Positions 6,871 to 20,136 of a DNA stretch of 45,382 nt are shown here, in pieces (within the stretch, counting starts at the first letter, position 1; each line of letters begins with the position of its first letter). Position numbers and translations under genes: made by a program. The stretch comes from Alloalcanivorax xenomutans (GTDB taxonomy: Bacteria; Pseudomonadota; Gammaproteobacteria; Pseudomonadales; Alcanivoracaceae): positions 1 to 45,382 of the forward strand of contig NZ_OBMO01000030.1 in assembly GCF_900217905.1 (NCBI RefSeq), written 5' to 3'. Below the pieces are notes generated by a model that saw only the letters and a list, made by a program, of their open reading frames with translations, was not told the origin of the DNA and made no database searches.

Positions 6871-8340
6871 TCAGCGTGAGGCACGGCGGCGGCCTTCTCC
6901 GCCGGCCAGCACCGCCATGGCCAGAGCCAGCAGCAGCGTGGGCCAGACGCCGGCCACCATGAACGGAGTCTGGCCCCGGCGCGGCTGGTATTCGCTGATC
7001 AAAACGCCGCGCTCGAATTGCGGTAACCGGTCGCGCACCTGGCCGTGCGCGTCCACTACGGCGGTGACACCGTTATTAGTGCCGCGCAACAGCCAGCGTC
7101 CGGTTTCCAGGGCGCGCAAACGGGTCATCTGAAAATGCTGCAGGGGCCCGGCGGAGTGGCCGAACCAGGCATCGTTACTGATGGTCAGCAGTACGTCCGC
7201 GTTGCCGGTGCGCTCCGCCACCTGGGCCGGGTAGAGCATCTCGTAGCAGATCGCCGGCGCGATCTCCTGGCCCAGGGCGAAAAGGTTGGGTTGGTCGGGG
7301 CGGCCTGGCGTGAAGCTGGACATGGGCAGATCGAAGAACGGAATCCAGCCGCGGATCAGACTTTCCAGTGGCACATATTCGCCGAACGGTACCAGCTTCT
7401 GTTTGTGGTAAACGCCGTCGTGACCGGTGCCCACCACCGCCACGCTGTTGTGGTAGCGCGGCGGGTAGGTGTTGGCGTCGCGCCAGGGCAGGCCGCTGAT
7501 CAGGGCGCCGCCGTTGGCGGCGATCCGTTCGCCCTCGCCATCCACGAAGCCGCGAATATCCTGATAGAACTCGATCATCGCCGACTCCGGCCAGATCACC
7601 AGGGTGTCCTCGGGCAGGTCGGCGCTGAGCGAGTGATAAATCTCCTGGGTCTCGTCACGCATGGTGACCAGCCACTTCAGATCCTGCGGAATATTGCCCT
7701 GTACCAACGCCACTTGTTGGCGAGGGCCGGAAGGGTGGGTGAAGGCATGGCGCCCGGCCAGCAGGCCCGCGGTCACCAGGATCAGTACCACCGCCAGAGC
7801 CGCCCCGGCGCTTACCCGTGGCCGCGCCAGATCCACCGCCGTGGCGGCGGCCAGTACCAGCGTCAGTGTCAGGGCCCAGACGCCGCCCAGTGGCGCCAGC
7901 CCGGCCAGTGGCGTATCAATGGCGGCGTAACCGGCATAGAGCCAGGGGAAGCCGGTCAACAGCCCGCCACGCACCCAGTCCAGCACCAACCAGGCGCCGG
8001 CGAAGACCATGGCGCGGGTGCCGCGCCGCTTGGTGAACCAGAAAGCCAGCCCATAAAACAGCGCCAATCCCATGGCGAACAAAGCGGTGAACGGAATCGA
8101 CATCCACAACGGCATGAAGCCGTAGTCGGTCATTGAGACGTGCAGCCAGCTGATGCCAAACCCGAACATGCCGACGCCATACAGCCAGCCGGCGGTGAAA
8201 GCGCGGCCCGGGGTCGGCGACCGTACCAGAGCCGTATAACCCAGAGCGGCGCTGACCAGCACCAAAGGCCACAGATCATAGGGGGCAAAGGCGAGGGGAA
8301 ACAGTAGCCCCGCGATCAGGGCGAGCAACAGGTTGGGCAT
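6871..8340 (-). CDS. lnt: Apolipoprotein N-acyltransferase
   Basis: Inner-membrane enzyme that adds the third acyl chain to the N-terminal cysteine of lipoproteins, the last step of lipoprotein maturation. At 489 aa it is close to E. coli Lnt (512). An N-terminal multi-helix region (about residues 1-200) is followed by a periplasmic nitrilase-like domain in which the triad is visible: Glu252 (VIWPESAM), Lys313 (YHKQKLVPFGEYVP) and Cys365 (PAICYEMLYP). The last helix is near the C-terminus. In most gammaproteobacteria lnt directly follows corC; here the two are about 11 kb apart, with a plus-strand catabolic island between them. lnt should therefore need its own promoter; a TATAAC box on the minus strand at 8410-8415 is the best -10 candidate, without a convincing -35. 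Confidence 0.95.
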   Translation of the reverse strand: MPNLLLALIAGLLFPLAFAPYDLWPLVLVSAALGYTALVRSPTPGRAFTAGWLYGVGMFGFGISWLHVSMTDYGFMPLWMSIPFTALFAMGLALFYGLAFWFTKRRGTRAMVFAGAWLVLDWVRGGLLTGFPWLYAGYAAIDTPLAGLAPLGGVWALTLTLVLAAATAVDLARPRVSAGAALAVVLILVTAGLLAGRHAFTHPSGPRQQVALVQGNIPQDLKWLVTMRDETQEIYHSLSADLPEDTLVIWPESAMIEFYQDIRGFVDGEGERIAANGGALISGLPWRDANTYPPRYHNSVAVVGTGHDGVYHKQKLVPFGEYVPLESLIRGWIPFFDLPMSSFTPGRPDQPNLFALGQEIAPAICYEMLYPAQVAERTGNADVLLTISNDAWFGHSAGPLQHFQMTRLRALETGRWLLRGTNNGVTAVVDAHGQVRDRLPQFERGVLISEYQPRRGQTPFMVAGVWPTLLLALAMAVLAGGEGRRRASR

Positions 8341-8695
8341 GGCTATCGGCGATCCCCGAGGTGAAATGGGAAACAGGGCGTATCAGTTGGCCCCAACATA
8401 ATGAGGCCACGTTATACGCAAATTAATCGCGGGGTGCCATGCCGAAAAAAACGGTTGTTCGGGGCACTCGCGCCGCTCTGGTACAGCACTTGCAAATGAA
8501 CCTGATTAAGACGCGGCCAATATGAGGATGGCAACAGCGGAGCCTCGCGGTTGGTTGCCTGAAAGAGCCGCCGCGGGATGTGACGGGGGTAAGCGGGTGC
8601 CCCCGAGAAACTTAATGTGCACCGATATGGGGCGTTCTGACGGACCGGATACCGGGCAGAGCGCTGGTCGAACATCAATGATCAGGAGAAACACC
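8341..8695. other. Divergent lnt/cynS intergenic region, left end of the catabolic island
   Basis: These 355 bases lie between lnt (minus) and cyanase (plus). A TATAAC on the minus strand at 8410-8415 may serve lnt. On the plus strand AGGAGA at 8684-8689 is the cyanase ribosome binding site. I did not find the AAATARTAT motif seen upstream of the other island operons, nor a direct repeat matching the right end of the island. Confidence 0.4.
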
Positions 8696-9136
8696 GTGGA
8701 TAAACAGCAAATGACCGACCTTATCGTCACCACCAAGGCCGCGCGCGGTCTGACCTGGGAAAAAATGGGCGAGGACCTGGGGATGTCACCGGTGTGGCTG
8801 GCGTCCGCCTGCCTCGGCATGAACGGCGCGCCGCCGGAAAAAGCCATGGCGATCACCGAGTATCTGGGGCTGGATCAGGACGTGGCCAAGGCGCTGGAAG
8901 CCTTTCCCACCAAGGTCTGGGATCAGACCGTGCCCACCGATCCGTTGATTTACCGGTTCTATGAAATCGCCGGTGTGTATGGCCCCACACTGAAGGAAGT
9001 GATCCAGGAAAAATTCGGTGACGGCATCATGAGCGCCATCGACTTCACCATGGAAGTGGACAAACAGGAAGATCCCAAGGGGGACCGTGTGGTGGTGACC
9101 ATGAACGGGAAATTCCTGCCCTACAAGCACTGGTGA
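8696..9136 (+). CDS. cynS: Cyanate hydratase (cyanase)
   Basis: Cytoplasmic enzyme converting cyanate plus bicarbonate to ammonia and carbon dioxide (via carbamate). It is 146 aa from a GTG start preceded by AGGAGA seven bases upstream; the longer frame opening at 8522 is rejected because the ribosome binding site would be inside it. The N-terminal helical domain covers about residues 1-75 and the C-terminal catalytic domain carries YRFYEIAGVYG and KFGDGIMSAIDF. Catalytic residues correspond to Arg87, Glu90 and Ser113 (E. coli Arg96, Glu99, Ser122; constant offset of nine). The usual partner, a carbonic anhydrase (cynT), is absent here. It lies 153 bases before a LysR gene on the same strand and at the edge of the transporter/CoA-ligase island. 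Confidence 0.95.
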   Translation: MDKQQMTDLIVTTKAARGLTWEKMGEDLGMSPVWLASACLGMNGAPPEKAMAITEYLGLDQDVAKALEAFPTKVWDQTVPTDPLIYRFYEIAGVYGPTLKEVIQEKFGDGIMSAIDFTMEVDKQEDPKGDRVVVTMNGKFLPYKHW

Positions 9137-9192
9137 CAGGAACACCGGCCGGCGAGGAAAGTGCCCGGCTGGCCGGTGTCCGGCTAGCGGGA

Positions 9193-9225
9193 ATCTTGCC
9201 TTGCCATAAAAAAATAGTATATAAG
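9193..9225 (+). promoter_or_regulatory. Promoter and candidate LysR-type operator upstream of lysR
   Basis: TTGCCT (9196-9201) and TATATA (9218-9223), 16 bases apart, form a plausible promoter. The -10 area contains AAATAGTAT (9212-9220), the core also found upstream of tctC (10255) and, as AAATAATAT, upstream of the acyl-CoA ligase (13415), each preceded by a TGCC/TGGC block 10-15 bases upstream. Overlap with the -10 box fits negative autoregulation, common for LysR proteins. Confidence 0.5.
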
Positions 9226-9289
9226 CTGCTTGTGCATTAAAAAATGCGATCCGGAAGGGCCGCCTCAGGCCTGTTGAGAGAGCAGACTC

Positions 9290-10240
9290 ATGAATCTCAA
9301 GCAGCTTCGCGCGTTGGTCGCGGTGTTCGAGGAAGGCAGCTTCTCCGCCGCCGCCAGTCGTCTGAATATCGTGCAACCGGCGCTCAGCCAGCAAATCATC
9401 GGTCTTGAGAAGGAACTCAACGTTCAGTTATTCGAGCGCACCAATCGTGGTGTCGCTCCCACGCCCTATGGTCAACGGTTGGTCAACCATGCCCGGCTGA
9501 TCCTGCGGCAGATGGAGATCGCCCGCAACGACCTGAGAACCTCCATGGAGTCGGAACCGGCCGGGGAGGTCATCATTGCCCTGCCGGTGACCGCCACCGC
9601 CAATCTGGCGCCAAGGTTGCTGGTCTGGTTGGAACAGCGCTATCCGCGTATCACCCTGAACATCGTCGAGGGGCTCAGTTCCGAAAGCGGGCATGTGGTG
9701 GAGACCGGCAAGGTGGAACTGGGGGTGATTCCCAATGCGGCGGAACTGGATGACGTGGAATCCATCCCGGTGCTGCGGGAGTACCTGTATCTGATCGGCA
9801 GCCCGGAGCTGGTGGGGCCGGAGAGCGGAGACATTACGCTGGCGGAGGCGGTGCAGCGGCCGCTGGCGCTGGGCGACCGGACCCATTACCTCAGGCGCGT
9901 GATCGATGAGCACGTGGTCGCCGCTGGCGCCACCCTCAATCTCCGCTATCAGCAGAACGGGCCGAAGACACTGGCCAGCCTGGTGGACCATGGCCTGGCC
10001 TGCATCATTACCAGCTATCCGCAGCCGCTGGAGCGCAATCGGGATCTTCCCCGCATGGCGCGGCGCATTATCGCGCCGGAAGTGACGCGTCTGATGGCGG
10101 TGGCCTGGCCGCGCAAACGGCCGTTGTCGAAACCGGCGGAGAAGGTCCGTGATGGCTTGATCCAGTTGATGGTGGAATCCGCGGAGCAGGGAGATTGGAA
10201 GGCCGATATCGTGCTTCCCGGCAGCCATAAAGAAACATGA
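9290..10240 (+). CDS. LysR-family transcriptional regulator
   Basis: A 316-aa LysR-type regulator. The N-terminal winged helix-turn-helix (residues 1-60) reads MNLKQLRALVAVFEEGSFSAAASRLNIVQPALSQQI and is followed by the linker helix and a periplasmic-binding-like effector domain (about 90-295). The overall pattern (QPALSQQI..LE.EL..QLF.R..RGV.PT..G) resembles the Nac/Cbl/CynR-type group. It lies between cyanase and the tctCBA operon on the same strand; the tctC start is 122 bases downstream, with a candidate operator between. I infer it controls the transporter and the ligase/dehydrogenase operon, since a similar motif occurs upstream of both, and possibly itself. The effector is unknown, presumably the imported carboxylate or its CoA ester. 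Confidence 0.9.
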   Translation: MNLKQLRALVAVFEEGSFSAAASRLNIVQPALSQQIIGLEKELNVQLFERTNRGVAPTPYGQRLVNHARLILRQMEIARNDLRTSMESEPAGEVIIALPVTATANLAPRLLVWLEQRYPRITLNIVEGLSSESGHVVETGKVELGVIPNAAELDDVESIPVLREYLYLIGSPELVGPESGDITLAEAVQRPLALGDRTHYLRRVIDEHVVAAGATLNLRYQQNGPKTLASLVDHGLACIITSYPQPLERNRDLPRMARRIIAPEVTRLMAVAWPRKRPLSKPAEKVRDGLIQLMVESAEQGDWKADIVLPGSHKET

Positions 10241-10267
10241 TGCCAGATATCGCGAAATAGTATTTTT
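10236..10267 (+). promoter_or_regulatory. Candidate LysR-type operator upstream of tctC
   Basis: This 32-base block starts at CATGATGCC and ends with AAATAGTATTTTT. It aligns without gaps to 13396-13427 upstream of the acyl-CoA ligase, with 24 of 32 positions identical. The AAATAGTAT core is also upstream of lysR. It lies about 95 bases before the tctC start and overlaps the last codons of lysR. Confidence 0.5.
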
Positions 10268-10362
10268 TTCTCCACAGACCCCGCCGTACCCTGCATGCCA
10301 CTGAATTGGGGCCGATTGGCCCTGTAGACAGACAAAGGCCACAGGGCCTCTGGAGAGACACA

Positions 10363-11316
10363 ATGACACTAATAAAACGAATCGCCGTCGCCTTGCTGGC
10401 GGCGCTGAGCATCACGTTCGCTTCCTTCCCCGCCCTGGCGGTGGCCGGGGAATGGCCGACCAAACCGATTACCCTGATGGTGGGGTTTTCCGCCGGCGGC
10501 GGTGCCGACACGCTGGCCCGATTGGTCGCCAAGGCGCTGGAGGAGGAATTGGGCCAGCCGGTGGTGGTGGACAACAAGGCCGGTGGCGGTGGTGTGGTCA
10601 TGGCCACGTTGCTGCAGCGCGCCAAAGCGGATGGTTACACCATCGGCTTTACTTCCGATTCCACCTTCGATGGCCTCCCTTTCATCGTCCGCACCGCCTA
10701 CAAGCCGGATGATTTCGACTACCTTGTTACTGTCACCGAACTGCAGAATGCACTGGTAACCGGTGCTTCGGCGCCCTTTTCCAACTGGCGGGAAATGTTG
10801 GACTACGCGCGCGAACAGGGCGGCCTGACGTTCGGCTCGCTGTCTCCGATCACGGCCAAATTCGCCGAGCGCATCGCCGCTCAGGAAAATATCGAGATCC
10901 GCACGGTTCCGGTCAAAGGCGGCCGTCAGGTGCTCACCGATGTGATGGGGCGTCATCTGGATGTGGGCTGGAGCGCCGGCGTGCACCAGGCCTATCTGAA
11001 CGATCAGGGCGTCAAGGTGCTGGCGGCCCTCAACGACAAGCGTATCGCCACGTCTCCGGACGCGCCGTCGCTGAAGGAATTGGGCTACGACCGCAGCTAC
11101 ACCAGTTATTTCATGCTGGCGGCGCCCAAAGGCCTGCCCGACGACATCCGGGCACGGTTGGTGGAAGCCTTGCGCAACGCCGCCACTTCCAAGGATGTGG
11201 CGGATCTGACCGAGAACAAAATGAAATTTCCCAATGTGGTGCTGAGCCCCGAGGAATTGACGCGCTTCATCGAAAAGCGCAGCGCTCTCAACGCGCAAGA
11301 GTTCGGTCAAGAATAA
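10363..11316 (+). CDS. tctC: Tripartite tricarboxylate transporter substrate-binding protein
   Basis: Periplasmic TctC/Bug-family binding protein, 317 aa. A signal peptide is visible (MTLIKRIAVALLAALS..., cleavage likely after ALAVA). The mature part starts EWPTKPITLMVGFSAGGGADTLARLVA, the Bug-family opening, and has VVVDNKAGGGGVV. The ATG at 10363 has GGAGAG upstream; the frame opens at 10306 but lacks a site there. It would bind a carboxylate and deliver it to TctB/TctA. Bug proteins bind varied carboxylates (citrate, dicarboxylates, aromatic acids), so the substrate is open. It is the first gene of a tight tctC-tctB-tctA operon. Confidence 0.93.
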   Translation: MTLIKRIAVALLAALSITFASFPALAVAGEWPTKPITLMVGFSAGGGADTLARLVAKALEEELGQPVVVDNKAGGGGVVMATLLQRAKADGYTIGFTSDSTFDGLPFIVRTAYKPDDFDYLVTVTELQNALVTGASAPFSNWREMLDYAREQGGLTFGSLSPITAKFAERIAAQENIEIRTVPVKGGRQVLTDVMGRHLDVGWSAGVHQAYLNDQGVKVLAALNDKRIATSPDAPSLKELGYDRSYTSYFMLAAPKGLPDDIRARLVEALRNAATSKDVADLTENKMKFPNVVLSPEELTRFIEKRSALNAQEFGQE

Positions 11317-11337
11317 TCGATGACGAGGTATTCCCTG

Positions 11338-11787
11338 ATGAATGCTCGTACCGTGGACCTGTGGGCCGGGGTCGGCATTGCCGCCGCCGGCCTGATCACG
11401 CTGTTCTATCTGATTCCCAATTACGTCAGCGCCGGTTTCGGTTTTGGCTTGTCGCCGCGCGCTTTCCCCTATCTGTGCGCGGGTGCGATCACGGTTCTGG
11501 GGGTATTTCTGGTGTTGTTGAACCTGAAAGCCAGTCGCCGCGATCAGATCAAGGCGCCGGTGGCACGGCCGGCGTTGCGCCGCTTGCTGGTGGTGCTGTC
11601 GGTGCTGGTGGTAACGCTGGCGTTGATGCAGTGGGCGGGCTATCTGGCCGCCGCCGTGGTCTGCGTGGCGTTGCTCATGTGGATGATGGGCGAGCGGCGC
11701 TGGCTGCCGATCCTGCTCACGTCTGTGGGCTGGAGCCTGTTCCTGTGGTTCCTGTTTGATCGTCTGTTGGGAACCCCGCTGCCCTGA
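11338..11787 (+). CDS. tctB: Tripartite tricarboxylate transporter small membrane subunit
   Basis: Small inner-membrane subunit of the TTT system, 149 aa from the ATG at 11338 (MNARTVDLWAG). GAGG lies about ten bases before it; an alternative ATG at 11320 has no ribosome binding site. About four hydrophobic helices are visible: IAAAGLITLFYLI, FPYLCAGAITVLGVFLVLL, LVVLSVLVVTLALM and WLPILLTSVGWSLFLWFLF. TctB works with the large TctA subunit; its exact mechanism in the family is not well defined. Gene spacing is 21 bases from tctC and 10 bases to tctA. Confidence 0.9.
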   Translation: MNARTVDLWAGVGIAAAGLITLFYLIPNYVSAGFGFGLSPRAFPYLCAGAITVLGVFLVLLNLKASRRDQIKAPVARPALRRLLVVLSVLVVTLALMQWAGYLAAAVVCVALLMWMMGERRWLPILLTSVGWSLFLWFLFDRLLGTPLP

Positions 11788-11797
11788 GGCCCGTACC

Positions 11798-13300
11798 ATG
11801 CAAGAGATTTTAAACGGCCTCTCCGAGGCCCTGACGCTGACCAATGTGCTGTTCGTGATCCTCGGCGTCTTGATCGGCCAGATTTTTGCCGCGGCGCCGG
11901 GTGTGGGATCCTTGATCGCCATCACCATCGCGGTGCCTTATACCTTTTATATGAGTCCGGTGGCCGCGCTGGGCTTTCTGATCGGCATCAACAAGGGCGG
12001 CACCATCGGTGGTGCCGTGTCGGCGATCCTTATGAACACCCCGGGGTCGCCGGAAGCCACCGCCACCACTTTCGACGGCTATCCGATGACACGCCAGGGG
12101 CAGGCCCGGCGCGCTTTGCGCACGGCGCATTTCTCCTCGGTTACCGGCGATACCCTGAGTGATCTGGTGCTGATCTTCGTGGCCGCGCCGTTGTCGGTGG
12201 TGGCAATGAAAATGGGGCCGCCGGAAATGGCCAGTGTGATTCTGGTGGCGCTGGTGATCATTGCCGGCCTGGTCGGCAGCTCCATGGTCAAAGGACTGAT
12301 CGCCGCCTTTCTGGGATTGCTGGTGAGCCTGATCGGCATGGATTCAGCCACCGCCGCGGAGCGCCTTACCTTCGGTGTGCCGGAATTAATGGATGGGATC
12401 TCCATCACCGCCGCCGGCATTGGTGTTCTTGCCCTGGGTGAAATTCTTCGGCAAATCGTCTATGTGGAAACGCTGCCGAAGCTGGAGCCGGATGAGGCGA
12501 ACTCGGTAAAGCTCGGTGGACGTTTTACCTGGAAGGATTTTCGTACCATTTTCCCAACCATTCTGCGTTCCACCTTTATCGGTACCTTGATTGGCGCCAT
12601 CCCCGGCATCGGTTCCAGCGCCGCCGGGTTCCTGGGCTACACCGCCGCCAAGAAAGCCTCGAAAACACCCGAGCGGTTTGGCAAAGGGGAGATTCGTGGT
12701 GTGGCGGCGTCGGAGGCCGCCAACAGTTCCGTCGTCGGGGCCAACTTCATACCTTTATTGTCGTTGGGTATTCCCGGAAACGTGGCGGCGGCGATCATTC
12801 TGGGTGCCTTTTTGATCCATGGTATTACACCGGGGCCACAACTTTTCTCGGAGCAGCCGGATCTGATTTACGCATTGTTCGCGGTCATGCTGATCGGTGA
12901 CCTGGTCAACCTGATTACTGGCCTGTTCACCATGGGACTGTTCGCGCGGGTCATCCGTATCCCTCTCAGCTATATCATCCCCTGTGTGGTGGTGCTTTGT
13001 ATAACCGGTGTCATCGTCGCCGACAGTCTGTTCAACGCCTGGCTGTTGATCGGCATGGCAACGGCGGGTTTCTTCATGCGCATGCTCAACTTCTCGTTCG
13101 TCACTTTCATTATCGGTTATGTGCTGGGGCCGATGTTCGAGGAGGCATTTGGCCAGACGTTGATCATGGCCAATGGCGATCCACTTTATCTTCTGCAAAG
13201 GCCAATAGCCTGTTTGTTTATTGGCATGGCCGTGCTGGTTCTGTTCGCGCTGTTACGGCAGCACCGCCGTAGTAGAAGAACTGCGGTGATGGCGGAATAG
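11798..13300 (+). CDS. tctA: Tripartite tricarboxylate transporter large permease subunit
   Basis: Large inner-membrane permease, 500 aa, with about ten to twelve hydrophobic segments. Typical TctA stretches are present: GVLIGQIFAAAPGVGSL near the start, GGAVSAILMNTPGSPEATATTFDGYPM, and in the second half IPGIGSSAAGFLGY and VAASEAANSSVVGANFIPLLSLGIPG. The repeated glycine-proline motifs in the two halves are the family signature. The start at 11798 has GAGG upstream; the longer frame from 11756 overlaps tctB and is not preferred. It is the last gene of the operon; a terminator follows at 13324. Confidence 0.95.
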   Translation: MQEILNGLSEALTLTNVLFVILGVLIGQIFAAAPGVGSLIAITIAVPYTFYMSPVAALGFLIGINKGGTIGGAVSAILMNTPGSPEATATTFDGYPMTRQGQARRALRTAHFSSVTGDTLSDLVLIFVAAPLSVVAMKMGPPEMASVILVALVIIAGLVGSSMVKGLIAAFLGLLVSLIGMDSATAAERLTFGVPELMDGISITAAGIGVLALGEILRQIVYVETLPKLEPDEANSVKLGGRFTWKDFRTIFPTILRSTFIGTLIGAIPGIGSSAAGFLGYTAAKKASKTPERFGKGEIRGVAASEAANSSVVGANFIPLLSLGIPGNVAAAIILGAFLIHGITPGPQLFSEQPDLIYALFAVMLIGDLVNLITGLFTMGLFARVIRIPLSYIIPCVVVLCITGVIVADSLFNAWLLIGMATAGFFMRMLNFSFVTFIIGYVLGPMFEEAFGQTLIMANGDPLYLLQRPIACLFIGMAVLVLFALLRQHRRSRRTAVMAE

Positions 13301-13323
13301 CGCCTGTATTTCTCCCTTGTTTG

Positions 13324-13356
13324 AGCCGGTCTTCATGGAGGGCCGGCTTTTTTTTA
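13324..13356 (+). terminator. Intrinsic terminator after tctA
   Basis: AGCCGG (13324-13329) pairs with CCGGCT (13343-13348), and the hairpin runs straight into a stretch of eight or more T residues. It ends the tctCBA transcript before the ligase operon starts. Confidence 0.7.
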
Positions 13357-13395
13357 TCTGAAGGAAATAATTCGGATACGACGGAAATAAAAAAC

Positions 13396-13427
13396 CATGA
13401 TGGCAAGAATCATAAAATAATATTTTT
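13396..13427 (+). promoter_or_regulatory. Candidate LysR-type operator upstream of the acyl-CoA ligase
   Basis: Starts CATGATGGC and ends AAATAATATTTTT; 24 of 32 bases match the block at 10236-10267 upstream of tctC. It lies about 105 bases before the ligase start, almost the same distance as in front of tctC (about 95). This equal placement favours a regulatory site over a chance AT-rich patch. Confidence 0.5.
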
Positions 13428-13531
13428 AAATCGAAATCGGGTTCTTCATTCTCTCCTGGCCTCGCCAAAGCGTGTGCTTTCGCTGTCGATCACCGTCCGG
13501 CGAATCGAATAAAACGAACAGGGAGAATCTA

Positions 13532-15079
13532 GTGAACCTTGGTCATCTGGTCACTCGTAGCGCTCGATACTGGCCCGGCCGCGTGGCCGTCGCCGATCGG
13601 CATCGCAATGTCACCTATCGCCAGCTCGAAGAGCGTTCCAACCGTCTCGCCAACGCCCTGTTGGGGCTGGGGCTGAATCCCGGTGACCGCGTGGCAATCT
13701 ACAGCCTTAACCGTTCCGAACTGGTGGAAGTCGAAGTCGCGCTCTATAAGGCCGGTCTGGTCAAGGCGCCGTTGAACGCGCGGCTGTCCACCGAGGAAGC
13801 GCTTCATGTTCTGGAAGATGCCCAGGCCCGGGTTTTGATCGTGGGGCCGGAGCATGCGCCCGCCATCATGGACCAGAGCACGGAGCTGCCCTGTGTCGAG
13901 CACGTGGTGGTTATCGGCAGCGAAGGCGGCTATGAATCCTTGGTGGAAAAAGGCGCCACGGATCTGCCCGCGGTGGAGGTGGACCCCGATTCTCCTGCGG
14001 TGCTGCATTATACCTCCGGCTCTTCCGGCCGTCTGAAAGCCGCGGTGCAGACCTTCAACAACCGTATGGCGCTGGTGCGAAAATCACTGATGCTGCCCAC
14101 GGAAGGCCGTTACAGCGATCGTGAATGCGTTGGCCATGTGGGCCCGGTGACGCACGCCAGCGGCATGCAGATCATGCCAACCCTGACCACGGGAGGCTGC
14201 AACTACCTGATCGACCGCTTCGATATTGATGAGCTGTTCGCCACTATCCAGCGCGAAAAGATAACCCGCTTTTTCGCCGTGCCCACCATGCTTTACCGGT
14301 TGATCGACAGCGGTCTGGCGGAACGCTATGACCTGTCCAGTCTGACGCGCATCACCTATGGCGCCGCACCCATGGCGCCGTCACGGTTGCGCGAGGCGAT
14401 GGATGTATTCGGCGCCATTTTCACCCAAGGCTACGGTGCCGGGGAAACCACCTCCACCATTTCCATCCTGACGCTGGAAGATCACTTGCGGGGGCTGGAG
14501 GAAAAACCGGAGCTGTTGGGTTCCTGCGGCCGTCCCTATGGCGAGTCCGATGTTATCGTCGCCGATGATGACGGCAATCCTCTACCCGACGGTGAAGCGG
14601 GTGAAATTCTGGTGCGTGGTCCGGACGTCATGCAGGGCTATTGGAACGCGCCGGATCTCACCGCGGAGGTGATCAAGAACGGCTGGTACCACACTGGTGA
14701 CGTGGCCCGGCGTGACGAGGAAGGCTTCTTTTTCATCATTGACCGCAAGAAAGACATGATCATTTCCGGCGGCTTCAACATCTACCCGGCGGAGATCGAA
14801 ACCGTGTTGTTCCGTCATCCGGCGGTGGCGGAGTGCTGCGTTATCGGAGCTCCCGATCCGGAGTGGGGCGAACAGGTGATCGGCTTCGTCGTCCGCCGGC
14901 CGGGAGAGGAGGTCTCCGAGGCGGCACTGGTCGAGTATTGCGCCGAGCATCTGGCCGGTTTCAAGAAGCCGCGACAAGTGCGTTTCGTCGATGAATTACC
15001 CAAGAACCCGAATGGCAAGGTCGCCCGCCGGCTGGTACGCGACACCTTCTGGAAAGGGCATGACCGGCAGGTGGGCTGA
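13532..15079 (+). CDS. AMP-forming acyl-CoA synthetase/ligase
   Basis: Class I adenylate-forming enzyme (ANL superfamily), 515 aa, expected to activate a carboxylic acid with ATP and CoA. The GTG at 13532 with GGGAG upstream is the likely start. Motifs: phosphate-binding loop [15 protein letters not shown] at 160-174, GYGAGETTSTIS, YHTGDVARRDEEGFFFIIDRKKDMIISGGFNIYPAEIE, and the C-terminal NPNGKVARR with catalytic-lysine candidate Lys496. The loop departs from the usual TSGTTGxPKGV form: SSG replaces TTG, and LKAAV replaces PKGV. It is 60 bases upstream of an acyl-CoA dehydrogenase and downstream of the TTT transporter, so the imported acid is probably its substrate. Which acid is unknown. 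Confidence 0.92.
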   Translation: MNLGHLVTRSARYWPGRVAVADRHRNVTYRQLEERSNRLANALLGLGLNPGDRVAIYSLNRSELVEVEVALYKAGLVKAPLNARLSTEEALHVLEDAQARVLIVGPEHAPAIMDQSTELPCVEHVVVIGSEGGYESLVEKGATDLPAVEVDPDSPAVLHYTSGSSGRLKAAVQTFNNRMALVRKSLMLPTEGRYSDRECVGHVGPVTHASGMQIMPTLTTGGCNYLIDRFDIDELFATIQREKITRFFAVPTMLYRLIDSGLAERYDLSSLTRITYGAAPMAPSRLREAMDVFGAIFTQGYGAGETTSTISILTLEDHLRGLEEKPELLGSCGRPYGESDVIVADDDGNPLPDGEAGEILVRGPDVMQGYWNAPDLTAEVIKNGWYHTGDVARRDEEGFFFIIDRKKDMIISGGFNIYPAEIETVLFRHPAVAECCVIGAPDPEWGEQVIGFVVRRPGEEVSEAALVEYCAEHLAGFKKPRQVRFVDELPKNPNGKVARRLVRDTFWKGHDRQVG

Positions 15080-15139
15080 GCCTGAACCGCCTGGAGAGAA
15101 CCGATCCGGCGGTAGCCAATAACGAAACGGAGCCTGAAC

Positions 15140-16333
15140 ATGTACGAGTATTTCTCCGGTAGTGAGAACGGCGAGCGAGTACGCGCTGAAGCCCGCGATT
15201 TCATCGAAAACTATCTCAAACCGCTGGAGGCGGAGCACGGTATCGACTTTGAAAGCGAGCCGTCGATGGATCTTCTGCGCGGGATCTGGAAAGCCTCCCG
15301 CGAGGCCGGCCTGTATGGTGCTCAGTTGCCCGAGGAACAGGGAGGGCGCGGTCTGAGTGTCTATGACCAGTGCTTGCTCAAGGAAGACGTCACTGCCTCC
15401 GGTGCCAAGCTGGCGGCCCATGTGCTGGGCGAGCTGGGCGGCCCGGGACGGGTCGGGCATCTGTTCCACATCGCCACCGAAGGACAACTGGAAAGTCACT
15501 TCCTGCCGGTGGTCCGGGCGGAGCGGACGGTCTGTTTCGCTCTGACCGAGCCGGAAGCCGGCTCGGACGCCAGCCGTCTTACCACCACCGCGGTGCGTGA
15601 CGGTGACGACTATGTGCTCAATGGTCACAAGCGGTTTATTTCCGGCGCGCCCTACGCGGATTTCGCCATTCTCATGGCGGTCACCGATGCGAACGCCGGG
15701 CCGCGCGGGGTCACCGCTTTCCTTGTTGATTTCGATCTTCCCGGCGTGACCATGGGCGCTGATTACACTCCCATTTCCGGTAAGCGTATCCATGCGGATA
15801 TTGTCCTCAAGGGCGTCCGTGTGCCGGCTACACAGGTGCTGGGTGGCGAGGGGCAGGGCTTCTTTCTCGGTATGTCCCGGATCACCGTGAACCGTCTGCT
15901 GCATTGCCCGACCATGACCGGTCTGGCGATTCAATCACTGGACGCGGCGGCGCACTACGCCACCCGGCGCCAGCAGTTTGGCCAGCCCATCGCAGGGTTC
16001 CAGGCGATCCAGCACATGCTGGCGGATATGGCCACTGAGCTGCACGCGGCGCGTTCGATGATGTTGGATGTGGCCCGGCGTATTGATAACGGCCAGGACA
16101 CGCGGGAAGCATCGGCCATGAGCAAACTGTTCTGTTCGGAGAAAGCCTTTGCTATCGCCGATCGGGCCATCCAGGTACACGGTGGCGTCGGTTTGATGCA
16201 AGGCTCCACCGTGGAGTGGGTGTTCCGCATGCTGAGGATGTACCGCATTGTCACCGGCACCAGTGAAATCCAGCGTAACACCATCGCCAAAGGCTATCTG
16301 AAGCGCTTGTCCGGGAAGGGAGTTCAGCGGTGA
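15140..16333 (+). CDS. Acyl-CoA dehydrogenase family protein
   Basis: FAD-dependent acyl-CoA dehydrogenase fold, 397 aa: N-terminal helical domain, middle beta domain with CFALTEPEAGSDASRLTTTA and NGHKRFISGA, and C-terminal helical domain with RRQQFGQPIAGFQAIQHMLADM, VHGGVGLMQ and VTGTSEIQRNTIAKGYL. These enzymes form an alpha-beta double bond in acyl-CoA and pass electrons to ETF. In medium-chain enzymes the catalytic Glu sits in YEGTS; here that position is Thr372. The alternative base position of the long-chain/isovaleryl enzymes also does not show an obvious Glu (ITVNRLLH). The enzyme may use another base or act on an unusual substrate. RBS GGAG precedes the ATG. It forms an operon with the ligase. 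Confidence 0.9.
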   Translation: MYEYFSGSENGERVRAEARDFIENYLKPLEAEHGIDFESEPSMDLLRGIWKASREAGLYGAQLPEEQGGRGLSVYDQCLLKEDVTASGAKLAAHVLGELGGPGRVGHLFHIATEGQLESHFLPVVRAERTVCFALTEPEAGSDASRLTTTAVRDGDDYVLNGHKRFISGAPYADFAILMAVTDANAGPRGVTAFLVDFDLPGVTMGADYTPISGKRIHADIVLKGVRVPATQVLGGEGQGFFLGMSRITVNRLLHCPTMTGLAIQSLDAAAHYATRRQQFGQPIAGFQAIQHMLADMATELHAARSMMLDVARRIDNGQDTREASAMSKLFCSEKAFAIADRAIQVHGGVGLMQGSTVEWVFRMLRMYRIVTGTSEIQRNTIAKGYLKRLSGKGVQR

Positions 16334-16402
16334 GCGCGGCGGGATTCCTCGGCGCCTTCTAGCGTCGGACTTTCATTCTTTCCACTTTTTCAGCGGACCG
16401 CC

Positions 16403-16419
16403 GGGCTCCGTCGGAGCCC
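16403..16419 (+). terminator. Hairpin after the acyl-CoA dehydrogenase gene
   Basis: GGGCTCCG and CGGAGCCC pair perfectly around a minimal loop. It lies 70 bases past the dehydrogenase stop and before the porin gene. No T-run follows, so termination is uncertain; a similar shorter pair (CTCCGC/GCGGAG) occurs around 16493-16507. Confidence 0.4.
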
Positions 16420-16573
16420 CTTGTGTCCTGGTAAACGCCGCCAGCAGGGTGACGCGGCGTAAGTGACGACATGGAAGCGCTTCCTGGTCGGGCTCCGCGA
16501 AGCGGAGAGGGAAGCCAGGTCATTCCCGACCTTGTATCCAATAACAACATCAGGCTCCAGGAGGCCTAATGCC

Positions 16574-17713
16574 ATGAATAACAAGATAACGGCCCTGTGT
16601 GTGGGCACCGCTCTGACAATGCTGCCGGCGGCGGGCTTCAGCGCCGGAATTTCCACCATCGAGGACATCAAGAACATCGTTCACCCCGGTGTCATTACCG
16701 GCAAGAAGATGGAGTTGTACGGCGCCGTCCGGGTTTCGGTGGATTATGCGGATTCCGATGTCAGCAGTGCCGAAGCGGAAGGCGGGGACCTGCTTACCGA
16801 CGGCGGCCTGAGTGTTTCCAGCAACACCAGCATGATCGGTTTTCGCGGTGAAGTGCCCTACAACGACAAGGTCATCTTTCTGTGGCAATACGAGCAGCAG
16901 GTGGATATCGACGACAAGGATGAAGGCGACACCTGGACCACCCGGGACAGCTTTCTTGGGCTGAAAACACCGGTAGGGCGGTTTCTGGTCGGGCGGGTGA
17001 ACACGCCATTCAAGAACATGAGCACGGAGTACGCCCTGTATTTCGCTTCCAGCGTAGGTGAGTCGCGCAGCATCCTTGGCGCGCCATCCTCGGGGGCGGG
17101 TGCCCATGTGGATCTGATGGGGGCCAACAGCCTGAACTGGCGTTTCCAGTATCGCAGGGTCAATTTCGCTTTGCAGTATTCCGCGGATCAAAGCGGTTCG
17201 GTCAACGCGGTGGACGACAACGACCGTGACAGCACCAGCGCCTGGCTGGACTGGAAAGGCGAGCATCTGCAACTCAGTGGCGCCTATATCCACTACTCGG
17301 ATTTCTTCGCCACCGGAAAACTGGAAGGTTATCGGGCCTTTGCCAAATACACGATGGGACCGGTGACCCTGGGGGCGATCTACGAGGATCTTCAGCCGGA
17401 ACAGTTCGATACGCTGGATCGCGAGGCTTACGGTGCTCAGGTCACCTACCGTTACCTGCCGCGCTGGGTGTTGGTGGGACAATGGAACCATGCGGACGAA
17501 TCCGAACGCGGTGACGATGCCGCCGATCAGTACAGCCTCGGACTGTTTCATCATCTGAGCAAACAAGTACTTCTGCATGGCATGCTGACCCATACCGACA
17601 ACGATGGGCAAGGTACCTACCGTGCCGTTAATTATGCCCATGGTGACAAGGTCGCCACCTTGCCGGGACGGGATCCCTGGGCGGTTTCCGTTGGTGCCCA
17701 GCTGCGATTCTGA
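16574..17713 (+). CDS. Gram-negative porin (Porin_4-type)
   Basis: Outer-membrane beta-barrel, 379 aa. Signal peptide MNNKITALCVGTALTMLPAAGFSA with likely cleavage after FSA. The rest is alternating amphipathic strands with features of the general porin family of proteobacteria: MELYGAVRVSVDY, SMIGFRGEVPYNDKVIFLWQYEQQVD, TWTTRDSFLGLKTPVGRFLVGRVNTPFK, ending in VSVGAQLRF with a C-terminal phenylalanine as the BAM-recognition residue. The start at 16574 is preceded by GGAGG ten bases upstream. It likely provides outer-membrane passage for the substrate of the island. It is followed after 13 bases by a secreted hydrolase, so the two are co-transcribed. Confidence 0.9.
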   Translation: MNNKITALCVGTALTMLPAAGFSAGISTIEDIKNIVHPGVITGKKMELYGAVRVSVDYADSDVSSAEAEGGDLLTDGGLSVSSNTSMIGFRGEVPYNDKVIFLWQYEQQVDIDDKDEGDTWTTRDSFLGLKTPVGRFLVGRVNTPFKNMSTEYALYFASSVGESRSILGAPSSGAGAHVDLMGANSLNWRFQYRRVNFALQYSADQSGSVNAVDDNDRDSTSAWLDWKGEHLQLSGAYIHYSDFFATGKLEGYRAFAKYTMGPVTLGAIYEDLQPEQFDTLDREAYGAQVTYRYLPRWVLVGQWNHADESERGDDAADQYSLGLFHHLSKQVLLHGMLTHTDNDGQGTYRAVNYAHGDKVATLPGRDPWAVSVGAQLRF

Positions 17714-17726
17714 AGAGGACGATGTC

Positions 17727-19037
17727 ATGGCAATGATGTTACGAACGACGGCGATGGCGGCACTTTTTACCATTACTCAGGTAGGAAGCGTTTCCGCGGC
17801 TACCAGGAGCGACACCATGGCGGAAGGCGTTATGCAGGGTTTTCCACCGCCGGCGGACAAACAGGTCAATCGTGGCAATGCGATGACGATGCCCTATATG
17901 CGCTGGACATTTCGGCATACAAGAGAGCGGGCTCCCACCGCCGGGCTGCGCCACTCCGATACGCCGCTACCCTTGCCGGAGGGAACAGCGCTCAATCTCG
18001 ATAAAGTGACCTTCCGCGCAGGCAAGGAAACACTGTCGGTGGCCGAGTATCTGCAACGCACTTTCACCGATGGGTTCATGGTTCTCCATCGGGGCCACGT
18101 GGTGGCGCAAGGTTATTACGATGGTCTTGATTACCACGACACCCATATCTGGGCATCGATGACCAAGTCCGTCACCGGCCTGCTGGCGGGGTTCTTCATC
18201 GAGGAAGGGCTGCTCGATCCGCGGGCGAAACTGTCGCGCTATGTTCCGGAACTGGAAGGCACGCCGTTCGGGGAAGCCACCTTACAGCAAAACCTGGACA
18301 TGGAAGTGGCGGTGAGCTATCCGGAAAAAATGCCGCCAGACCTGGGATTGTTCGCCGCCGTGGGGGTGGTTCCCCGGCGCGATGGCATGCCGGACAACAT
18401 TTACGATTTTCTGCGGGTTCCATCACAAACGGAGGGGGTCGACAAGGTCTGGTTTTATCAGAACGGATCCGCCGAGGCGGTGGCCTGGGCCATTCGCAAA
18501 GTGGCCGATGAGCGTTGGAGCGAGTTGGTGTCACAGCGGATCTGGTCGCGCTTCGCCGACGATGACGCCTATATTCTGGTGGACCGTTTGATGACCGAGA
18601 TGGCCAGTGGCGGCATCAATGCCACCTTGTCCGATACCGCCCGCTTCGCGGAAAGCGTGCGCCGGGCGCTATCCGTGACGGAGCCGCGAACAGCGTTTGA
18701 CCGCGCGGTGCAACGGGTGTTGTCGCCACGGGACAATCGTGACCTTTTCGCCACGGGTAACTTTGCCAAGGCCCGTCCGGGATACGCTTACCACAATTTC
18801 TGGTATCACCGGAACGACGCCAATGGCGGCCTGGAATGTGCAGGCCGGTTTGGCCAGAAAATTTATATCGACCCGAAGCGGGAATTGGTCGTGGTCAAAC
18901 TGGCGTCCACTCCGGACACCGCCCGCCGGGCGACCAGTGCGGGCACCTCCGCCGGAGCCATCAACCGGGCCCCGCTGGACACCAGCGCGGTGTTCAACGC
19001 CATGGTGGATGCCATCGGAAACGAACTCACGGACTGA
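17727..19037 (+). CDS. Secreted serine hydrolase, class C beta-lactamase fold
   Basis: A 436-aa member of the serine beta-lactamase-like family (EstB, NylB and related esterases/amidases). A signal peptide is visible (MAMMLRTTAMAALFTITQVGSVSAA). Catalytic motifs: SxxK as Ser144-Met-Thr-Lys147 in WASMTKSVTGLLAGFF, and YxN as Tyr244-Gln-Asn246 in WFYQNGSAEAVAW. The third motif region near GRFGQKIYIDPKRELVVVKLAS resembles the GxGQxIYIDP stretch of 6-aminohexanoate-dimer-hydrolase-like proteins. It probably hydrolyses an ester or amide in the periplasm and releases the acid that the TTT system imports; this is inference from context. GAGG precedes the ATG at 17727, which is 13 bases after the porin stop. 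Confidence 0.88.
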   Translation: MAMMLRTTAMAALFTITQVGSVSAATRSDTMAEGVMQGFPPPADKQVNRGNAMTMPYMRWTFRHTRERAPTAGLRHSDTPLPLPEGTALNLDKVTFRAGKETLSVAEYLQRTFTDGFMVLHRGHVVAQGYYDGLDYHDTHIWASMTKSVTGLLAGFFIEEGLLDPRAKLSRYVPELEGTPFGEATLQQNLDMEVAVSYPEKMPPDLGLFAAVGVVPRRDGMPDNIYDFLRVPSQTEGVDKVWFYQNGSAEAVAWAIRKVADERWSELVSQRIWSRFADDDAYILVDRLMTEMASGGINATLSDTARFAESVRRALSVTEPRTAFDRAVQRVLSPRDNRDLFATGNFAKARPGYAYHNFWYHRNDANGGLECAGRFGQKIYIDPKRELVVVKLASTPDTARRATSAGTSAGAINRAPLDTSAVFNAMVDAIGNELTD

Positions 19038-19060
19038 AAAAATCGTCAGGAACGATTTTT
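19038..19060 (+). terminator. Terminator after the serine hydrolase gene
   Basis: AAAAATCGT pairs with ACGATTTTT across a five-base loop immediately after the hydrolase stop codon, and the 3' arm itself provides the T-run. The left arm with the loop and part of the right arm (AAAAATCGTCAGGAACGAT) is repeated at 19113-19131. Confidence 0.6.
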
Positions 19061-19131
19061 AACGTCACCTTGGTGACGGCCCCTCGGGGTGACCGCCATG
19101 GACGGCGGTCATAAAAATCGTCAGGAACGAT
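19038..19131. repeat. Direct repeat of 19 bp with intervening hairpins
   Basis: AAAAATCGTCAGGAACGAT occurs at 19038-19056 and again, exactly, at 19113-19131. Between them are two further palindromes: GTCACCTTGGTGAC (about 19064-19077) and GACCGCC/GGCGGTC (19091-19110). The second copy lacks the T-run, so it looks like a duplicated or transposed terminator fragment at the right edge of the catabolic island. Confidence 0.65.
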
Positions 19132-19140
19132 AGCCCTTGC

Positions 19141-19212
19141 TGTGGGAAGCGGCCTTGGCCGCGAATACGCCTTCCAGTAATTGACGATTCGCTTGCAAGC
19201 AAGCCTTCCACA
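19141..19212. repeat. REP doublet (REPIN/BIME-like)
   Basis: Two REP-type palindromes in opposite orientation: TGTGGGAAG followed by GCGGCCTTGGCCGC (19149-19162), and GCTTGCAAGCAAGC (19191-19204) followed by CTTCCACA. The outer ends TGTGG.AAG/CTTCCACA are inverted to each other. This is the organisation of Pseudomonas-type REP doublets. It lies between the island and corC. Confidence 0.6.
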
Positions 19213-19260
19213 GTGGCTCCGTAGTGACCTGCGAATCTATGTCTCCAAGGCTCCGAAGGA

Positions 19261-20136
19261 TTACTCCGGTGAGGCGTCCAGAGCCGGATCATCCTGCCGG
19301 TGAGTGACCCGCAGCAGCCGGATTGTGCGGCCGTCCGCGCTTAGCACGGTGAACTGGAACGGCCCCAGATCGATGGACTCTTCGCGTCCGGGCAGGCGGC
19401 CGAAGGCGTGCATCACCAGACCGCCGATGGTGTCGAACTCCTCGTCGCTGAGTTCGCACTGAAAATGTTCGTTGAAATCCTCGATCGGCGTCAGTGCCTT
19501 GACCGTGTGCTCGCCGTTCTCCAGATCCTTGATCAGGTAATCGTCTTCCTCGATGTCGTGCTCATCCTCGATCTCGCCGACGATCTGTTCCAGCACGTCC
19601 TCGATGGTGACCAGGCCGGCGATGCCGCCGTACTCGTTGACCACGATGGCCATGTGATTCTTGGTGATGCGGAATTCCCGCAGCAGCGAGTCCAGGCGCT
19701 TGGACTCGGGCACCACCATGGCCGAACGCACATGATCCTTGATCTGGAAGCGTTCCATGCGGGCCGGCTCCAGAATCAGCGCCAGCAGATCCTTGGCCAG
19801 CAGGATACCGATGACTTCGTCCGGATCATCGCCGATGACCGGGAAGCGGCTGTGGGCGCATTCGATGATGGTGGGCAGGAAATCGCGGGGGTCGCTGCTG
19901 GCACGGATGCTGACCATCTGCGTGCGAGGGATGAGAATCTCCCGGACCTGCATGTCGCTGACGCCGATGGCGCCTTCGATGATGCCAAGCGTGTCGCCGT
20001 CAATGACGTGACCGTCGCGCATGGAGCGCATCAGATCCAGCAATTCCTCCCGGGAGCCGGGAGTGGAAGTGAAGAACTGGCCAACGCGCTCCAACCAACT
20101 TCGACCGTTGTTCTGGTCTGAATAGTCGTCCGACAT
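19261..20136 (-). CDS. corC: CorC/YbeX-type CBS-domain protein
   Basis: A 291-aa cytoplasmic protein of the HlyC/CorC family without the membrane DUF21 domain. A short N-terminal part is followed by a CBS pair (about residues 65-195: VREILIPRTQMVSIRASSDPRDFLPTIIECAHSRFPVIGDDPDEVIGILLAKDLL...MAIVVNEYGGIAGLVTIEDVLEQIVGEIEDEHD) and a C-terminal CorC_HlyC domain (about 205-285). It is implicated in magnesium/cobalt homeostasis in enterobacteria; the exact function is unsettled. It is part of the miaB-ybeZ-ybeY-corC-lnt order and follows ybeY by 47 bases. lnt, normally next, is displaced by the catabolic island. Confidence 0.93.
   Translation of the reverse strand: MSDDYSDQNNGRSWLERVGQFFTSTPGSREELLDLMRSMRDGHVIDGDTLGIIEGAIGVSDMQVREILIPRTQMVSIRASSDPRDFLPTIIECAHSRFPVIGDDPDEVIGILLAKDLLALILEPARMERFQIKDHVRSAMVVPESKRLDSLLREFRITKNHMAIVVNEYGGIAGLVTIEDVLEQIVGEIEDEHDIEEDDYLIKDLENGEHTVKALTPIEDFNEHFQCELSDEEFDTIGGLVMHAFGRLPGREESIDLGPFQFTVLSADGRTIRLLRVTHRQDDPALDASPE

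Follow-up and report, generated by a model that had tools for sequence, protein, structure and literature searches.

A 45,382-nucleotide stretch of DNA from Alloalcanivorax xenomutans (contig NZ_OBMO01000030.1; hereafter, the window) contains an inserted block of genes at approximately positions 9138–19070, all on the forward strand. This block was judged, with a rough probability of 0.55, to be a mobile island that takes up an anionic acid derived from an ester, most likely of the dicarboxylate type, and activates it with CoA, and that includes an atypical acyl-CoA dehydrogenase (ACAD). The original prediction had placed a set of genes of named families on one strand; Pfam and NCBIfam searches confirmed all nine open reading frames (ORFs), at approximately the predicted places and with the families as named.

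In the proposed scheme, the ester would enter through an outer-membrane porin and would be cleaved in the periplasm by a secreted NylB/EstB-type hydrolase (Ser-Lys-Tyr). The acid released would be taken up by a TctC-B-A importer and converted to its CoA thioester by an acyl-CoA ligase, after which an FAD-dependent, ACAD-fold enzyme would catalyze the next step without the usual glutamate base, with its residues R104, R247, and H255 holding the distal charge of the acyl group. Beta-oxidation enzymes encoded elsewhere would complete the breakdown, and the LysR-type regulator presumably controls the gene set.

Conserved Linkage of Regulator, Importer, Ligase, and ACAD Genes

Gene neighborhoods were compared for 80 ACAD loci on named genome contigs. 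These were the best 80 of 545 confirmed relatives, so that the linkage rates hold for the nearest kin only. Genomes and loci are given by our own labels (G and L numbers) where needed. Neighbors were counted in a TBLASTN census that used two queries each for ligase, CoA-transferase, hydrolase, and alkylsulfatase, three each for LysR and TctC, four for porin, and one for MFS. Several of these queries were drawn from the same 80 loci, and the ligases of the loci were 47–100% identical to their best-matching query. Counts are lowered by 11 loci in which one flank of the ACAD gene is shorter than 7 kb.

A ligase homolog was found within 5 kb of the ACAD gene in all 80 loci, and a LysR gene within 7 kb in 75 and within 4.5 kb in 70 of them. 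As importer, TctC was present within 7 kb in 59 loci and an MFS protein in 15, while six had neither and none had both. Such alternation of TctC and MFS would be expected of importers that handle one kind of acid. CoA-transferase III genes occurred in 36 loci, porin genes in 21, NylB-like hydrolase genes in 11, and alkylsulfatase-like genes in 6. A thiolase match was detected in eight loci, beside the ACAD gene in four and approximately 6 kb away (43–45% identity) in the other four.

As a control, a near zone (up to 4.5 kb from the ACAD gene) was compared with a far zone (4.5–9 kb) in the 67 loci whose two flanks each reach at least 9 kb. Numbers of loci with a match in the near and the far zone, respectively, were 67 and 6 for ligase, 62 and 10 for LysR, 49 and 18 for TctC, 13 and 1 for MFS, 30 and 11 for CoA-transferase, 17 and 5 for porin, 7 and 2 for hydrolase, and 5 and 1 for alkylsulfatase. 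Thiolase (4 and 4) and tctA (3 and 4) showed no excess near the ACAD gene. Both the linkage kept across the 80 loci and the contrast between near and far zones indicated that the gene set is not accidental. The neighborhood search called for in the original prediction thus found LysR, importer, ligase, and ACAD genes kept together in relatives rather than scattered, with a less constant porin-hydrolase tail.

At a threshold of E 1e-110, the ACAD was present in 4 of 94 genomes, namely the genome of the window and 3 of 12 congeners, and was not found in the 81 other genomes searched. Its nearest named relatives, from Alloalcanivorax mobilis and A. marinus, were 87–89% identical.

An ACAD Clade Without the Catalytic Glutamate

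The ACAD-fold protein (15140–16333) contains the N-terminal, middle, and C-terminal domains of the family (Pfam Acyl-CoA_dh_N, _M, and _1), all above the Pfam cutoff. Its best solved relatives were caffeyl-CoA reductase CarC and ordinary acyl-CoA dehydrogenases; profile matches were 308 bits for CarC, 199 for 3-sulfinopropionyl-CoA desulfinase, and 173 for ACAD11. PHROGs gave one match, of unknown function. A catalytic Glu was absent from either known site. In comparison with CarC and with paralogs, Thr372 (codon 16253–16255) occupies the site of the YEG-loop Glu (Glu376 of MCAD) and Asn251 (15890–15892) that of the helix-G Glu (Glu254 of isovaleryl-CoA dehydrogenase, IVD), the latter column being one that we assume from the paralogs in the same genome rather than from an IVD structure. 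The motif at the YEG site is VTG in the window protein and [VFL]TG in its clade.

In an alignment of 81 rows with at least 50% identity to the window ACAD (80 distinct sequences), Thr372 and Asn251 were invariant, as were R104 and R247 (15878–15880), while H255 was found in 77 rows and was replaced by Gln in L020, L031, L036, and L091. Since many rows are closely related, these 81 do not represent 81 independent events. The genome of the window held 44 further ACAD matches, for which 29 loci were examined; as L117 and L123, and likewise L120 and L122, encode the same protein, these comprised 27 paralogs. Glu or Asp was found in one of the two base columns in 25 of the 27, for instance Glu in the first column in L002–L005 and in the second in L006–L008. 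In a reduced set of 19 rows (L113, L117, L118, and L120–L126 dropped), all carried Glu or Asp in one column. Five ACAD11-like paralogs (L105, L107, L108, L110, and L116) had Asp in the first column and showed the HCMR plus Asp pattern of ACAD11/LvaC. Close to some of the loci, another ACAD (L086:4834-6285 and L073:4905-6317) combines the usual Glu with Arg at both 247 and 251, an intermediate pattern.

Because Thr and Asn occupy both catalytic-carboxylate positions in 81 of 81 aligned rows, simple desaturation, with which the original prediction had ended its path, is doubtful. The steps that it had placed before, cleavage outside, import, and formation of the CoA ester, stand as a design read from the gene set. 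Departures from canonical ACAD chemistry have precedents. According to the accessible text of PMC8360864, among ACADs without this Glu the isovaleryl enzyme uses another Glu, the desulfinase (AGG at the site) acts on a sulfinate, and IaaF (GGG) has been proposed to expel CO2; an ACAD-like dioxygenase is described in the part of PMC8283759 that was available. The benzylmalonyl-CoA dehydrogenase IaaF resembles the window protein, by description rather than by sequence, in having no YEG Glu and in being encoded, as far as the available text of PMC8360864 tells, in an operon with a ligase, a CoA-transferase, and a binding protein. The window protein does not fit the decarboxylating IaaF subclass, which is marked by the GGG motif and the iaa operon context: its motif is VTG, and Pfam found no mutase among the island genes. 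Neither the gene set nor an ACAD whose Glu site holds Thr was described in the accessible literature, which included few subscription papers.

The invariance of the two arginines suggests that they hold the acyl group, which would then be anionic; we consider this the most economical reading. Base-free flavin chemistry is possible for such a protein. On a more specific and tentative view, the clade, fixed for Thr/Asn and provided with a putative anion pocket, might perform for example decarboxylative oxidation of a substituted malonyl-CoA or other carboxyacyl-CoA, and might form the core of a portable ester-to-CoA module with interchangeable importer and outer hydrolase.

Clues to the Substrate and Comparison With Adipate Degradation

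TctC (10363–11316), TctB (11320–11787), and TctA (11798–13300; Pfam TctA, 439.5 bits) make up a complete three-gene tripartite tricarboxylate transporter (TTT) of the TctCBA/Bug kind. Among solved relatives of TctC, 25hk scored 110 bits (no ligand named), BugD 100, and terephthalate-binding protein at most 80. Downstream, the ligase (13472–15079; Pfam AMP-binding and AMP-binding_C; start uncertain) barely passed the NCBIfam subfamily PRK06187, long-chain-fatty-acid--CoA ligase (477.2; cutoff, 476). The LysR-type regulator (9290–10240; Pfam HTH_1 and LysR_substrate) precedes the importer genes.

In L020, L031, L036, and L091, a CoA-transferase III gene and a thiolase gene come after the ligase and ACAD genes, and L020, L031, and L036 also have a FadB-like gene. 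The L091 thiolase is split; the NCBIfam scan covered the other three, which pass the PcaF (3-oxoadipyl-CoA thiolase) equivalog at 745, 738, and 700 bits, respectively (cutoff, 597). These PcaF-type thiolases point to a C6 dicarboxylate. Together with the TTT importer, the conservation of R104, R247, and H255, and the correspondence with ACAD11 described below, they speak for an anionic substrate, for which a dicarboxylate-like acid is the best lead. In the accessible part of PMC12543098, ACADs, ligases, and LysR regulators specific for dicarboxylates are reported from beta-proteobacteria, as is a LysR/ACAD pair of Ralstonia CL21 with dicarboxylate phenotypes (ABZR87_RS20870/RS20865).

Alkylsulfatase-like genes were found in L016, L035, L038, L039, L040, and L046, and the substrate may also enter as a sulfate ester. 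The Marinobacter mangrovi locus (L016:3463-8215) carries alkylsulfatase-like, IclR, and SulP permease genes between LysR-TctCBA and ligase-ACAD-porin.

The Acinetobacter dcaAKIJP cluster combines an ACAD, an importer, a porin, and CoA activation. The island could accordingly be a variant of such a dca-type cluster, in which a normal alpha,beta-dehydrogenase, with another residue or water as base, starts ordinary beta-oxidation of an adipate-like dicarboxylate. This explanation, which we regard as possible but doubtful, draws on the thiolase-linked loci, on the reported dicarboxylate-specific proteins, and on the adipate genes proposed for Pseudomonas jessenii (ORF4277-4282), which, in the part of PMC6061476 that was accessible, include a CoA-transferase, a thiolase, and an ACAD; the CoA-transferase III of the 36 loci noted above is a further likeness to dca/adipate clusters. 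The present loci differ from these clusters in their constant ligase, TTT or MFS importer, occasional secreted hydrolase, and ACAD without Glu, and the window island has no thiolase, hydratase, or 3-hydroxyacyl dehydrogenase gene. Non-acidic residues at both known base positions in every aligned ACAD also argue against a normal dehydrogenase. Moreover, the thiolase-linked loci are the four marked by Gln255, for which reason the thiolase clue may not transfer to the island.

The genome of the window already has an ACAD with Glu (L003), encoded divergently from a thiolase whose score lies above the cutoff of the PRK08131 3-oxoadipyl-CoA thiolase equivalog (696 bits; cutoff, 622) and below that of TIGR02430 (544 bits; cutoff, 597), so that plain adipate needs no island; as a candidate substrate it is weakened accordingly. 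MarR-type and DctM genes lie near this pair (L176:4409-7720), which is perhaps an ordinary dicarboxylate locus.

Comparison With Leaving-Group ACADs

R626 and H634 of ACAD11 have been modeled as ligands of a 4-phosphate (PMC12440821, as far as accessible) and, by our reading of the motif, match R247 and H255. The anion-site Arg and His are thus a likeness to ACAD10/ACAD11 and LvaC, and are shared with the ACAD11-type paralogs. In a quick tree of 58 rows (short search, motif columns kept), the ACAD clade had an SH-aLRT support of 100 and was joined, with a support of 98, to a sister group (support, 82) that holds the five ACAD11-like paralogs. It could therefore be proposed that the enzyme expels a leaving group without simple desaturation, as in the desulfinase reaction or in 4-phosphate removal by ACAD11/LvaC. 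The desulfinase Acd (5af7) likewise has no YEG Glu, and its locus in Advenella also contains LysR, CoA-transferase III, ACAD, and TctC genes, according to the available part of PMC5373536.

We nevertheless consider this proposal unlikely. R637 and D753 of ACAD11 correspond to T/S/A/N258 and T372 in the present clade, no kinase was detected among the proteins scanned, and both the desulfinase and ACAD11 matched the window protein well below CarC. The tree program, in addition, warned of long branches. Membership of the ACAD11/LvaC group was rejected for the window ACAD itself, as the catalytic Asp and R637 are missing (T372 and T258) although R247 and H255 are present.

Insertion Site and Limits of the Island

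In congener G008 (L095), cynS is joined without interruption to the sequence that forms the window's right flank. BLASTN aligned L095 3245-3699 with window 8683-9137 and L095 3692-3948 with window 19070-19323, from which the extra piece in the window extends from approximately 9138 to 19070. Its limits are good to a few bases. TGGTGAC is present at both junctions (9131-9137 and 19071-19077), but this repeat of seven bases, which includes the cynS stop codon, could be due to chance. The original prediction had treated 8696–19037 as the island; its gene block was retained, and its left limit was moved to exclude cynS.

The flanking housekeeping genes, which we take to be lnt (6871–8340, reverse strand; found in all 13 genus genomes) and corC (19261–20136, reverse strand), enclose a gap (window 8341-19260) that is an insertion hotspot in the genus. 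Lnt and corC adjoin, with no gene of the set and no space for one, in 4 of the 13 genus genomes (G003, G004, G005, and G011). The gap holds cynS alone in three (G006, G007, and G008); in the first two, cynS also adjoins corC, and the intervening stretch matches the right flank of the window only in part. LysR-TctCBA-ligase-ACAD-porin, without cynS or hydrolase, occupies the gap in three more (G001, G002, and G012), where the LysR is 81–82% identical to that of the window. Two genomes carry other inserts, of approximately 3.0 and 1.9 kb (G009 and G010), and only the window genome has the complete set, cynS and hydrolase included.

The block of G001 is broken by a contig end, with LysR-TctA on one contig and ligase-corC on another, and ZIP-type and superoxide-dismutase genes lie between lnt and LysR; the gap contents of island, ZIP, and superoxide-dismutase genes are those of L127. 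In G002, as in L013 and L014, a CoA-transferase III gene stands between ACAD and porin. The gap holds a 521-amino-acid ORF (no Pfam match) and an ion-channel gene in L128, and a 521-amino-acid ORF in L129.

Cyanase (cynS, 8696–9136; NCBIfam cynS equivalog, 174.1 bits; cutoff, 113.3) had been put forward as a nitrogen-removing partner of the pathway. As a part of the pathway it was rejected: three congeners have cynS without the block and three have most of the block without cynS. Because cynS and island segregate independently, cyanase is a feature of the site rather than of the island.

An accidental assembly of unrelated catabolic genes at this hotspot is improbable. It would fit the differing inserts between species and a porin and hydrolase unlike the A. 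marinus content at the same place, but for LysR, importer, ligase, and ACAD it is largely refuted by the conserved neighborhoods of the 80 loci and their near/far control.

Porin and Hydrolase

The porin (16574–17713; Pfam Porin_4) is only 38% identical to the A. mobilis/A. marinus porin at the same place. The NylB-like serine hydrolase (17727–19037; Pfam Beta-lactamase; no match in PHROGs) is predicted to be secreted or periplasmic. Its best solved match was 4gb7 (184 bits), with NylB-type chains at no more than 146.5 bits. S185, K188, and Y285 (numbered from 17604) correspond to the Ser-x-x-Lys and Tyr215 of NylB, features common to NylB and EstB-type serine hydrolases. In place of NylB Asp181, Asn266, and Tyr170, the window protein has F250, S335, and M243; the same three positions hold Phe, Ser, and Leu in the aligned homologs of L025, L053, and L062. 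Tyr170 of NylB has a role in cleavage of the 6-aminohexanoate dimer. Asp181 and Asn266 are important for this reaction as well, and another NylB homolog lacks them and has Ser for Asn266, according to the text available for PMC7019077.

The original prediction had left ester and amide open. Since the hydrolase is without the NylB residues tied to cleavage of an amide dimer, an ester is favored and an esterase is the likelier activity; identity as a nylonase was rejected. An island for degradation of nylon oligomers or amides is very improbable. Among the 19 solved relatives listed at E 0.001, 18 bear the name 6-aminohexanoate-dimer hydrolase, but the replaced residues in the window protein and three homologs, and the lack of a Pfam match to aminotransferase or aldehyde dehydrogenase among the nine window genes, speak against it.

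Hydrolase, importer, and ligase genes recur together across several gene orders, that of the window included. L025 has ACAD-TctC-hydrolase-porin; L026, L061, L062, L076, L080, L087, and L088 have ACAD-CoA transferase-MFS-porin-BON-hydrolase; and L053 has ACAD-CoA transferase-MFS-hydrolase. A hydrolase-TctC-porin-ligase run is found on the opposite strand in L037 (hydrolase 35% identical). In L046, the hydrolase gene is placed after MFS, alkylsulfatase, and a reversed porin.

Starts for tctC (10363; ORF from 10306), porin (16574; ORF from 16463), and hydrolase (17727; ORF from 17604) were picked by eye from start lists and are preferred because a signal-peptide-like stretch comes next; they leave 13 bp between porin and hydrolase. 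For tctA, 11798 is the likely start (ORF from 11756). A promoter/terminator scan gave counts close to those of shuffled sequences (2 against a mean of 4.2, and 12 against 9.2, respectively). Between tctA and the ligase gene, however, there is a 12-pair stem with a T-run (13323-13349).

Weighing and Implications of the Proposed Function

Several observations weigh against an ester-fed island for a dicarboxylate-type acid with a base-free ACAD. A search that covered 47 of the 80 locus genomes found a close hydrolase homolog (at least 49% identity) in 17, of which 10 were at the ACAD locus and 7 elsewhere. Three of these seven (L164, L165, and L168) lie beside TctC and a LysR 46–49% identical to one of the LysR queries, two (L163 and L167) have other ligase and ACAD genes (27–35% identity) within reach, and one (L166) has tctA approximately 4 kb away; the last (L169) has no TctC, LysR, ligase, ACAD, or tctA. 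In L164:4409-9844 (G372), the order is aconitase-family gene, hydrolase, TctC, and reversed LysR. The hydrolase is also absent from the site in the three other island-bearing genus genomes, and the genomes of L012, L013, and L014 (A. mobilis and A. marinus) gave no hydrolase match at E 1e-60. A test for co-occurrence of hydrolase and ACAD across the class had no power, as each search of 274 genomes matched only the window genome.

TctC is less firmly linked to the ACAD than ligase and LysR are, because it is frequent in the far zone too. The long-chain-fatty-acid subfamily fit of the ligase gives no support for a dicarboxylate, and the Gln255 of the thiolase-linked loci and the adipate pair of the same genome count on this side too. 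As for the ACAD, the divergent paralogs L117 and L120 are also without a carboxylate in both columns, and it is possible that a residue elsewhere in the protein supplies the base.

If the proposed function is correct, a group of "acyl-CoA dehydrogenases" in environmental beta- and gammaproteobacteria would be misannotated, and a conserved gene module would gain a testable function. The interchangeable TctC and MFS importers and the two kinds of outer hydrolase would then offer a ready-made set of loci in which to look for the common substrate. Ester-derived dicarboxylates are also products of plastics and plasticizers, a connection that we infer and that may lend the module practical weight.

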